DNA of 35,145 nt from a virus: IMG/VR virus record IMGVR_UViG_3300003885_000023, positions 1 to 35,145 of that record. One strand, 5' to 3'. The notes beneath the pieces are model-generated. The model did not search any database, was not told where the DNA came from, and saw only the letters and a list, made by a program, of their open reading frames with translations. Below are positions 16,860 through 32,360 of this stretch, piece by piece (within the stretch, counting starts at the first letter, position 1; each line of letters starts with the position of its first letter). The translations under genes were made by a program, and so were the position numbers.

Positions 16860-17021
16860 TTACTGAGAGAAGGCCTCTCGAAGATCGCATTCTATTTCCT
16901 TAAAGATTTCTTGCTGCTTTTTGTATGCTTCTTTTCTTATAATGGTTAAAGCCTCATTTAGAGTTATATTTTCATCTCCTAAAACATTATCAATAGGAAT
17001 GAAATCAGACTGGTGATTCAT
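16860..17021 (-). CDS. 53-aa helical protein, last gene of minus operon
   Basis: This small frame has ATG at 17021 and TAA at 16860-16862; GAGGG lies six bases before the ATG. Residues 1-20 are polar (HQSDFIPIDNVLGDENITL) and 20-50 form one charged helix (NEALTIIRKEAYKKQQEIF). It overlaps the upstream gene end by 17 bp and stops five bases from the convergent gene at 16855. Function unknown. Confidence 0.6.
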   Translation of the reverse strand: MNHQSDFIPIDNVLGDENITLNEALTIIRKEAYKKQQEIFKEIECDLREAFSQ

Positions 17022-17268
17022 AGTTTCCCTCTGGATTCATATATTTCCATCTTCTGTGTATATTTTTATAAGGATTTTTAGAAAAATTAATCCAAACAAA
17101 AACTTCTTCATTAGCTGCAAGATTCGTAATTCTTGCAATATAATTCAGATATTTTTGTGGGTCTTTTCCTTTTCCTATAGTTCTGGTAGAAATATCTTTA
17201 ATGGGCACTCCGCGAGGTATCGATTTAAAAGGAGGGGGAGGGGGTAAATAGTTAGGTAAAGCTTCCAT
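17005..17268 (-). CDS. small unknown protein with polyproline start
   Basis: The protein has 87 residues. The N-terminus holds a proline run (NYLPPPPPFKSIPRGVPIK). The rest is mixed alpha/beta with several Lys/Arg and Trp (EEVFVWINFSKNPYKNIHRR). It overlaps the genes on both sides. The proline run could bind a partner, but no family is recognised. It lies in the operon with the recombinase and alpha-CTD-like gene. Confidence 0.65.
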   Translation of the reverse strand: MEALPNYLPPPPPFKSIPRGVPIKDISTRTIGKGKDPQKYLNYIARITNLAANEEVFVWINFSKNPYKNIHRRWKYMNPEGNYESPV

Positions 17269-17476
17269 TTTTTATTCCTGGTAAGATTTCTAATAATAGT
17301 TTCATGTTTTCTGAGATTTCATTAATTCTTTTTTCGTGATCTCCATATCTTCTAAAGAGTCCACGTCGTAGATTATCTTGTTGTTCTTGTAAAACTAGAA
17401 TTTTTTCAAAGTTAACTCCCTCTGGAGTAAGAAGACCTTCAAAAAGATCCATTTGTGAATATTCTTGTGTTTTCAT
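17252..17476 (-). CDS. coiled-coil protein
   Basis: The protein has 74 residues from ATG 17476; a GTG at 17485 is an alternative. Residues 20-66 are a long amphipathic helix (ILVLQEQQDNLRRGLFRRYG, then INEISENMKLLLEIL) that probably forms a coiled coil. No strong ribosome site is seen. It overlaps the next gene by 17 bases. A partner of the other small helical products of this operon is possible. Function unknown. Confidence 0.6.
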   Translation of the reverse strand: MKTQEYSQMDLFEGLLTPEGVNFEKILVLQEQQDNLRRGLFRRYGDHEKRINEISENMKLLLEILPGIKNGSFT

Positions 17477-17521
17477 ATTAACCACTGATTTGTTTAATCT
17501 ATAGTTTAACTACGATCCTCT

Positions 17522-17707
17522 TTAATGTCTAGATGTTTTTGTGATGGATTTAATTAAATAATTAACTTCAATGAGCTTTTGATTCATTTGAAGAAGGGTG
17601 TGTGAAATTATTTCAATCATTCCTTCAAGGTGAGCTAATCTTTCACCTATATTTGATGGGTTTGAATTGAGAGATGAATTTTTGTGAAATTTTGATGTAG
17701 GATTCAT
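17522..17707 (-). CDS. small helical protein
   Basis: The protein has 61 residues. A Ser/Asn-rich head is followed by a helix with heptad-like Leu/Ile/Met (ERLAHLEGMIEIISHTLLQM). ATG 17707 directly follows the recombinase stop at 17708, and AAGGAAAATAA in the recombinase end can serve as ribosome site. Likely co-translated with the recombinase. Family not recognised. Confidence 0.6.
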   Translation of the reverse strand: MNPTSKFHKNSSLNSNPSNIGERLAHLEGMIEIISHTLLQMNQKLIEVNYLIKSITKTSRH

Positions 17708-18265
17708 TTATTTTCCTTTGTTTACGTAGTGATAAAAGGTGGGTTTAGAAATTGCAAAGAGCAAACAGAGTTCAGTTACGCTCAAAGATTTTGAGTTGTA
17801 CATGGCGACCATTTTATTTATGCGGTCTGGCTGAAGTTTGTTAGGCCTCCCTATCTTTTTCCCCCTTTTTCGCGCGCCCTCAATTCCTTGGTGTATCCTT
17901 TCGATGTTTCTCATCCTCTCATTTTCAGCCACCATAGCCATGAAATTGAAGATCATTTTTCCGGAAGCGGTATTAGTATCCATATCGGGATAGCCAACGA
18001 TTGCTAAATTAACTCCTCTGACCTGAAGCTCTTCAAGAAGAAGCGCTAAATCCTTAGTAGAACGTCCGAGCCTATCAATTCCGGTGACAGTTAAAATATC
18101 GCCCTTCCTTAGGAATTCCATTAACCTTTCGAATTGGATTTTTTGTGAATTAAATCCAGAAACAGTATCGGAAAATATTTCTTCACATCCATTATCTTTA
18201 AGAAGGGCTATTTGGTTTTCCAAAGATTGCTTTGGGGTGGAAATACGGGCATATCCAAATTTCAT
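17708..18265 (-). CDS. serine recombinase, resolvase/invertase family
   Basis: The protein has 185 residues, the usual length of Tn3 resolvases and Hin/Gin invertases. The catalytic motif is YARIST with Ser9; also present are SLENQ, GIDRLGRST (residues 62-70) and the E-helix NFMAMVAENERMRNIERIHQG. KKIGRP leads into a C-terminal HTH (LSVTELCLLFAISKPTFYHY). These enzymes cut two short sites through a 5'-phosphoserine link. Possible roles are dimer resolution of the circular genome or inversion of a tail-fibre segment, though no inverted repeats around fibre genes were noticed. It lies 12 bases after the alpha-CTD-like gene, in one operon. Confidence 0.92.
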   Translation of the reverse strand: MKFGYARISTPKQSLENQIALLKDNGCEEIFSDTVSGFNSQKIQFERLMEFLRKGDILTVTGIDRLGRSTKDLALLLEELQVRGVNLAIVGYPDMDTNTASGKMIFNFMAMVAENERMRNIERIHQGIEGARKRGKKIGRPNKLQPDRINKMVAMYNSKSLSVTELCLLFAISKPTFYHYVNKGK

Positions 18266-18277
18266 TTTTTTCCTTTT

Positions 18278-18697
18278 TTACTTCCATTTTATATCATGAG
18301 AAAGGAATTTTTTATTAATTTCTTCTATTGCGCCTGCCCCTAAATTTCTAAATAAACGTAGGTCAGAAGGAGTTAATATAAAAACATCTTTTAGCGTAAG
18401 CATTCCTCCGCAGTTTAGAGCATTAAAAGTTCGAGTTGAAAACTTGGCGTTTTCGATGGGCGTCTCTAAAAATTTTCCATCTCCAGCGCTGATTATATTT
18501 TCTATAATAATCAACTTCATATCTAAACTATTAATTTTGTTTTCCCATTCTTCGATTTTTTCATTAAATTGTTCAGCGCGCAATTTGATATCTTCAATAT
18601 ATTTATGGCATTGATGAATTAAAGCAGAGGCTCTCTTGTTAACTTCTTTTTTGTAATCTTCTATGCTTTCTTTCAGCACTTTTATTTCTGTACTCAT
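18278..18697 (-). CDS. coiled coil plus RNA polymerase alpha-CTD-like domain
   Basis: The protein has 139 residues. Residues 1-70 form a charged coiled coil. Residues 80-133 read like an RNA polymerase alpha C-terminal domain: PIENAKFSTRTFNALNCGG, then LTLKDVFILTPSDLRLFRNL, then GAGAIEEINKKF. Relative to E. coli alpha, Arg265 and Asn268 correspond to Arg89 and Asn92, and the NLG loop is kept. Lys298 and Ser299 are replaced by Gly and Ala. The domain binds UP-element DNA and activators in the enzyme. A free copy on a coiled coil could compete with or replace the host domain. It is the first gene of the minus operon. Confidence 0.72.
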   Translation of the reverse strand: MSTEIKVLKESIEDYKKEVNKRASALIHQCHKYIEDIKLRAEQFNEKIEEWENKINSLDMKLIIIENIISAGDGKFLETPIENAKFSTRTFNALNCGGMLTLKDVFILTPSDLRLFRNLGAGAIEEINKKFLSHDIKWK

Positions 18698-19605: not shown

Positions 19606-20064
19606 ATGATGAAATTTTCAAATTTAAATCATCAAGAACAAGTTAGAGAAATATCTGAGTTCTTTCGCAAGACCGAAAACGAAATTAGAGGGATTAAGAA
19701 GGAGTACAGTGAGATTCTTCTAGAGAGTCCTCTCAAACAAGTCATCGATTTTTGGATAGAACAGGTAACAGAAAAGAATCATCTGAGTAAAGAGACGGCC
19801 GCTAACTACCAAAACTACTTGAAAGACTTGCACTCAAAGGGGATTTTGCTAGAAAAAACCAAAGAAGGCTTTCCGTTTACCCTACAACTATTTACAGACA
19901 ACAGCCAATCCATCCTAGAGGCGCTTTTGAATTATTCAGATCTTTCTCAACAGCAAAAACGGCTGCGTCTAAGTGCCTTGATTTCATTTGTGAATTTTTT
20001 AAACCAGCTCACTGATGGATTCATTCAAAAGCTCTCTATCCCTGAAGAATTTAAGCTTAGATAA
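19606..20064 (+). CDS. truncated tyrosine recombinase-like protein (pGP7/pGP8-like N-terminus)
   Basis: The protein has 152 residues from ATG 19606 (ATG 19609 also in frame), with AAAGGGG upstream. Residues 45-140 look like the DNA core-binding domain of tyrosine recombinases: PLKQVIDFWIEQV, LSKETAANYQNYLKDL, then RLRLSALISFVNFLNQLTDG. The catalytic domain with its Arg/His/Tyr residues is absent. From memory, the order resembles the N-terminal half of chlamydial plasmid pGP8 (for example RAASYISLTRFLNRMTQG). It may bind sites without cutting. Direct repeats lie on both sides. Confidence 0.62.
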   Translation: MMKFSNLNHQEQVREISEFFRKTENEIRGIKKEYSEILLESPLKQVIDFWIEQVTEKNHLSKETAANYQNYLKDLHSKGILLEKTKEGFPFTLQLFTDNSQSILEALLNYSDLSQQQKRLRLSALISFVNFLNQLTDGFIQKLSIPEEFKLR

Positions 20065-20176: not shown

Positions 20177-20455
20177 ATGAAATACGAATGTCCCTCCTGT
20201 TATTTGCAATGGCAAGATGAAAAAGAACCGTTTAACAATCTTTTTCATCCCCTCTGTACGTTTTGCTCTATCACCCACTCTCAGAAAGAACTTCTTAATT
20301 GGCAAATGGATCATCTTAAAAATATTAATCAACAAAAGATACACGAAGTGTTACGTCATTTCTATAGGTTTGTGGAATTGGAACTTAAGCTATTAGAGGA
20401 AAAAATTAATGATAAAATTGATTACGTGGAACATAAGGACAGCAGAGAAACCTAA
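20177..20455 (+). CDS. zinc-finger-like protein
   Basis: The protein has 92 residues. CPSC (residues 5-8) and CTFC (31-34) form a four-Cys site with His28 and His38 nearby, suited to a zinc ribbon. Residues 38-80 are helical and charged. There is no ribosome site: the leader reads ACAACCACATT directly before the ATG, as for the genes at 32659 and 6213, which do have one. It overlaps the next gene by 47 bases. Function unknown. Confidence 0.65.
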   Translation: MKYECPSCYLQWQDEKEPFNNLFHPLCTFCSITHSQKELLNWQMDHLKNINQQKIHEVLRHFYRFVELELKLLEEKINDKIDYVEHKDSRET

Positions 20456-32018: not shown

Positions 32019-32360
32019 TTAATTCTCCTTTTTTATATAATGAATATTTAATCTGGACAATTGTGAATACATACTAAGTAAAACATTATATAAGTATAAT
32101 TCCATTTGGTGCTGTTTTAATAAACATTTATTTCTTATATTAAATTCAAAATAATATTTATCAGGATCAAATACACAATCCTCTGCATATTCGAGTTTCC
32201 TTTTTACTTTCAAAATTTTCTGTCGGATCCGTGGTGGTGTAAGATTATAATCCCTGGCTATTGAAGAATACGTTTCTCCTTTTAAATATCTTAAATACAT
32301 GCGCATTGTTATTTCAAACTTTGCTGATGGATCATAGAATCTTTTTAAGGGATTGTTCAT
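32019..32360 (-). CDS. sigma-70 region 4-like DNA-binding protein
   Basis: The protein has 113 residues. Residues 13-58 read like sigma region 4: a helix (EITMRMYLRYLKGETYSSIA), then RDYNLTPPRIRQKILKVKRK, matching the pattern in which the recognition helix follows a T/S-PxR turn. The regions 2 and 3 of a full sigma factor are absent. The second half is aromatic, with three scattered Cys. Standalone region-4 proteins of phages (for example T4 AsiA partners and gp33-like factors) redirect the host polymerase. It overlaps the ribbon-helix-helix gene by 4 bp. Confidence 0.65.
   Translation of the reverse strand: MNNPLKRFYDPSAKFEITMRMYLRYLKGETYSSIARDYNLTPPRIRQKILKVKRKLEYAEDCVFDPDKYYFEFNIRNKCLLKQHQMELYLYNVLLSMYSQLSRLNIHYIKKEN

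Follow-up and report, generated by a model that had tools for sequence, protein, structure and literature searches.

What does a phage gain from encoding its own small version of the RNA polymerase alpha-CTD, a domain already known as a target of phage modification and binding? The question arises from a 139-aa protein encoded in a virus record of 35,145 bases (hereafter, the window). An earlier note on this DNA had described an alpha-CTD-like domain carried on a coiled coil, encoded at the head of a reversed six-gene operon, and proposed that it could divert host polymerase to phage promoters or block host activators.

All six minus-strand ORFs of this run are present where they had been placed, from 18697 down to 16860 (Table 1). 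The gene for the 139-aa protein leads six tightly packed co-directional genes, a serine recombinase among them; neighbors are separated by 12, 0, or 36 nt, and two pairs overlap by 17 nt. Such spacing suggests that the six genes may be co-transcribed. A search for a sigma70-type promoter ahead of 18697 on the minus strand found none; terminator-like hairpins are somewhat enriched in the region (six found versus 2.6 expected in shuffles), which is weak evidence. The cassette had been described as a serine recombinase with four small helical proteins; the recombinase and the small ORFs do exist, but the 87-aa ORF is not evidently helical. Relatives of the 77-aa protein were detected in about ten related phage contigs, with E values from 6e-19 to 8e-4, and short ORFs like the 53-aa one adjoin the recombinase in the phages L002, L004, and L006/L008, as judged by eye. 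An Rfam search over 15-21 kb of the window returned no match, and defense-system profiles gave no more than coiled-coil-level noise for the window proteins.

Table 1. Features of the gene run led by the alpha-CTD-like protein (window coordinates)
Feature	Coordinates	Strand	Basis
139-aa protein, coiled-coil-like helix (residues 2-66) plus alpha-CTD-like domain (residues 75-130)	18278..18697	-	Pfam PF03118, AlphaFold, Foldseek, L002 orthologue
Alpha-CTD-like domain (PF03118 match)	18308..18475	-	E = 5.7e-11 in own-genome search; residue table
Small serine recombinase, resolvase/invertase type, 185 aa	17708..18265	-	Pfam Resolvase, HTH_7; PHROG
61-aa helical protein, function unknown	17522..17707	-	L004 relative, E = 1e-4; PHROG 34126 (unknown function)
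77-aa protein, QMDLFEG...LRRGLFRRY motif	17252..17485	-	widespread recombinase partner
87-aa ORF, weakest of the six gene calls	17005..17268	-	no relatives by phmmer
53-aa helical protein	16860..17021	-	relatives in L009 and L013 at about 1e-4
Terminator-like hairpin closing the gene run	16865..16879	-	weak evidence

We then assessed the identity of the domain. Pfam RNA_pol_A_CTD (PF03118) matched the C-terminal half of the protein with E = 2e-9 and 37.5 bits, above the curated cut-off of 23.8 bits, and the same search listed no HhH family at E<=1. The best PDB sequence matches were alpha subunits, and NCBIfam rpoA models aligned to the protein through their C-terminal part. An AlphaFold model, built from three sequences only (the window protein and two relatives), consisted of one long helix and a compact helical head with a mean pLDDT of 83.6; a prediction of the domain alone without an alignment reached a pLDDT of 38 and was not used. 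When the model was compared with the PDB by Foldseek, 50 of the 50 listed matches were alpha-subunit or RNAP entries, with E values from 5.8e-4 and an rmsd of about 1.0-1.4 Å to isolated alpha-CTD chains. The generic helix-hairpin-helix domain that the earlier note had weighed against its own reading is thus not the best match. With profile and predicted fold in agreement, we take the alpha-CTD-like domain to be real, and "phage-made alpha-CTD" is a fair label. The alpha N-terminal assembly domain is absent, the 139 residues comprising the helix and the CTD only.

In this lineage the domain has lost most of the canonical contacts to DNA and sigma. In an alignment to an enterobacterial alpha, from which we take the residue numbering, the window protein keeps Arg-265, Asn-268, Asn-294, Gly-296, and Glu-302 and carries the replacements C269A, K298G, S299A, D259N, and E261K. 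The 265 determinant for DNA (Arg-265, Asn-268, Cys-269, Gly-296, Lys-298, Ser-299, and Glu-302) is therefore incomplete, and the 261 determinant for the sigma contact, which has acidic residues at 259 and 261, reads Asn and Lys in both the window protein and its L002 orthologue. A G-x-G hairpin is retained in the head (residues 120-122). The L002 protein, the closest homologue (63% identical), occupies the same position before the same recombinase and additionally has His in place of Arg-265 and Gln in place of Asn-294. The description of a domain that keeps the DNA-contact Arg and Asn and loses Lys-298 and Ser-299 is thus accurate for the window, but because of the histidine in L002 the kept arginine is, on this alignment, not a conserved feature. 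Comparison of the two genes by NG86, a rough estimate because it uses two sequences, gave dN 0.27 and dS 0.99 (dN/dS about 0.27) for the whole ORF and dN 0.22 and dS 0.85 for the alpha-CTD head alone, indicating that the ORF is under purifying selection relative to L002.

These residues bear directly on the proposal that the protein reads UP elements and in this way brings host polymerase directly to phage promoters. Arg-265 and Asn-268 are present, and dimers formed through the coiled coil could bind tandem sites; against this, the window protein has neither the alpha N-terminal domain nor the sigma-contact acidic pair, Cys-269, Lys-298, and Ser-299 are gone, and L002 has replaced the arginine. 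The claim is weakened accordingly, and we regard direct steering as very improbable. Canonical UP-element reading by the window protein is unlikely because contact residues are lost and no alpha N-terminal domain is there to tether it to the polymerase, and we do not claim canonical DNA binding for it.

A related phage preserves what the window protein has lost. L004, which shares 84% portal-protein identity with the window, encodes just downstream of its recombinase a 230-aa helical protein with a Pfam alpha-CTD match of 55.2 bits. This domain keeps Arg-265, Asn-268, Cys-269, Asn-294, Gly-296, Lys-298, Ser-299, and Glu-302, as well as the acidic pair (Glu at both 259 and 261). With every canonical contact in place, the L004 form fits the idea of the earlier reader better, and it could still bind UP-element DNA. 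The window and L002 form most likely acts through protein contacts.

Among 50 records related by their portal protein, alpha-CTD genes were found in two and resolvases in 15; both counts are lower bounds because many of these records are fragments. In all three phages found with such an alpha-CTD gene it directly adjoins the recombinase gene, lying upstream of it in the window and in L002 but downstream in L004. Because only these three were found to carry one, the gene looks like dispensable cargo. A scan of genome contigs with the 139-aa protein gave no relatives. A weak extra match in L020 (8414-8710) was rejected, being by eye a relative of the window gene at 20177-20455 and not an alpha-CTD. 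Two of the short GenBank phage records matching alpha-CTD were examined (L143 and L144, unannotated and unverified); their matches are RpoA-like ORFs of full length (316 and 324 aa), probably host sequence, and were set aside. HhH/alpha-CTD folds are also used outside transcription, and the L004 domain weakly resembles part of the BREX PglW kinase (NCBIfam, PADLOC).

The constant neighbor of these genes is a small serine recombinase. The window enzyme has both the resolvase catalytic domain (Pfam Resolvase, 9.4e-35) and a C-terminal HTH_7 (1.9e-8), and its PHROG match is to a DNA invertase (6.4e-55). Such proximity raises the possibility that the 139-aa protein is an architectural DNA-binding partner of the recombinase, as Fis and HU are for invertases and resolvases. 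All three alpha-CTD genes directly adjoin a recombinase gene, and the G-x-G hairpin could hold the DNA backbone. Yet 13 of the 15 related resolvase records have no detectable alpha-CTD gene, and therefore the recombinase does not need the alpha-CTD protein. No convincing inverted recombination sites, such as would flank an invertible segment, were found among the repeats in the window, a record that may be incomplete, and the other recombinase neighbors vary freely: depending on the phage, they include short zinc-ribbon-like ORFs, SDR-like and cupin-like ORFs (by eye), and membrane or coiled-coil proteins. We consider a role as architectural partner unlikely. Since the flanking genes differ between phages, the cassette looks like a variable accessory locus. 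One such cassette, in L087 (1-906, minus strand), contains a U-box protein (Pfam, 23.7 bits; cut-off, 21.4), and RING/U-box genes have been reported in Parachlamydiaceae (PMC4209131).

The probable host was approached through the portal protein. When 84,980 species, represented by one genome each, were scanned with a portal profile, three loci were confirmed. They lie in MAGs of Simkaniaceae, Parachlamydia, and Methanomicrobiales, and the Methanomicrobiales case is probably misbinned. Portal relatives occur in 4 of 151 chlamydial genomes, and the contigs examined are phage-sized. The window also has, at 19606-20064 on the plus strand, a 152-aa ORF that resembles a tyrosine recombinase in its N-terminal part only and lacks the catalytic domain; over 148 residues it shares 50% identity with part of a chlamydial chromosomal recombinase (a 330-aa open frame on a 1.17-Mb contig). 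This integrase-like ORF had no match in a plasmid collection. The host is probably an environmental chlamydia.

Chlamydial chromosomes themselves encode larger proteins, about 385-450 aa long, that contain an alpha-CTD-like domain internally (L135:3160-4428, L137:3275-4546, L141:3356-4552, and others), several of which adjoin queC/queE-like genes. Like the window protein, they have replaced the Lys-298 and Ser-299 equivalents (G-x-G hairpin); unlike it, they are much larger, place the domain mid-protein, generally lack Arg-265 and Asn-268, and form a separate branch of the domain tree. The profile of this family scores the window domain at 28.5 bits, versus 18.5 bits for a chlamydial RpoA profile. 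These similarities, and the loss of most contact residues, would fit a degenerate alpha-CTD whose fold has been kept for generic binding of proteins or nucleic acids, in an accessory gene that plays no part in transcription; elsewhere the cassette holds other cargo unrelated to transcription, such as the U-box protein. On the other side stand the intact alpha-CTD of L004 and the domain tree, in which the window domain is closest to L002 and next to L004 and falls with RpoA, apart from the chlamydial chromosomal family, although its long branches and many open forks give weak resolution. We judge the generic module rather unlikely. An alpha-CTD profile run over the 151 chlamydial genomes matched almost only long open frames, mostly RpoA, with no free small protein among the matches listed.

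We favor, tentatively and at somewhat short of even confidence, a transcription modulator encoded by the phage, in which a long helix, probably a dimerizing coiled coil, carries an alpha-CTD-like head. The helix would dimerize, and the head would work away from the polymerase, occupying partners or sites of the host alpha-CTD. These could be an activator or some other transcription protein, or else AT-rich DNA upstream of promoters, which might be held through the G-x-G hairpin. Host transcription would thereby be damped or redirected. In favor of this reading are the profile and fold matches, the purifying selection, the intact L004 domain, and, as described below, the sigma-4/alpha-CTD proteins of other phages and the T4 precedent; against it are the lost contacts, the histidine of L002, the lack of an RNAP-tethering domain, the small number of phages found with the gene, and the use of such folds outside transcription. 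We find a decoy or adaptor role for a coiled-coil dimer more plausible than canonical UP-element reading, and the blocking of host activators by such a protein, the second half of the original proposal, is conceivable. Such a protein would mimic a host component, could disturb gene reading in the infected cell, and, as a decoy or adaptor, would be a new takeover tactic. The phages concerned are tailed and apparently infect environmental chlamydiae, about whose phages little is known. The intact L004 domain and the eroded window version form a natural mutant pair that could reveal which surface matters. A search of the literature (without preprints and with few subscription journals) found no phage described as making its own free alpha-CTD copy, which is a weak indication of novelty; databases already contain stand-alone alpha-CTD-like proteins as such, e.g. 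NCBIfam PRK07758, which weakly matches a chlamydial chromosomal protein and the phage protein of L175.

Finally, we compared the window protein with known systems. It shares with RNA polymerase alpha (PF03118) the fold, the profile match, Asn-268, Gly-296, and Glu-302, and Arg-265; it differs in the long helix that replaces the alpha N-terminal domain, in the loss of Cys-269, Lys-298, Ser-299, and Asp-259/Glu-261, and in having no LGM(R/D)L tail. A viral scan with a pattern built from the L004, window, and chlamydial RpoA ends detected phage proteins of 288-332 aa that combine a sigma-70 region-4 domain with a canonical alpha-CTD (L175:3257-4180, L176:3257-4168, L178:3389-4255, and L179:3380-4378), some with an N-terminal HTH_17; the region-4 match is above the Pfam cut-off in three of these four. 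Like the window protein, they are phage-borne and have a helical linker with the alpha-CTD towards the C terminus, whereas they keep the canonical Arg-265, Asn-268, Lys-298, and Ser-299, possess an HTH/sigma-4 part, and lie on contigs not found among the portal relatives of the window phage. Their presence in unrelated phages suggests a broader reuse of the alpha-CTD in phage regulators. It is conceivable, if somewhat doubtful, that tailed phages of Chlamydiota and these unrelated phages independently converted the host alpha-CTD into free regulators of two builds, coil-alphaCTD and sigma4-coil-alphaCTD. As a class of polymerase mimics, these would act at promoters by competing with alpha-CTD and sigma region 4 or by bridging them, and the window member would have shifted from DNA to protein binding. 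Separately, the window has a 113-aa ORF (32019-32360, minus strand) with a sigma-70 region-4-like HTH containing "RIRQ" (TIGR02937, E = 9.4e-5; Pfam Sigma70_r4, E = 0.0016; both below cut-off), for which no counterpart was found in 29 related records.

Phage T4 provides a precedent for attack on the same surface, as it modifies Arg-265 of alpha (PMC2988021). The likeness of the T4 takeover factors Alt/ModA and AsiA/MotA to the window protein lies in the target only, alpha-CTD or sigma region 4; those factors are enzymes or sigma binders, not copies of the alpha-CTD.
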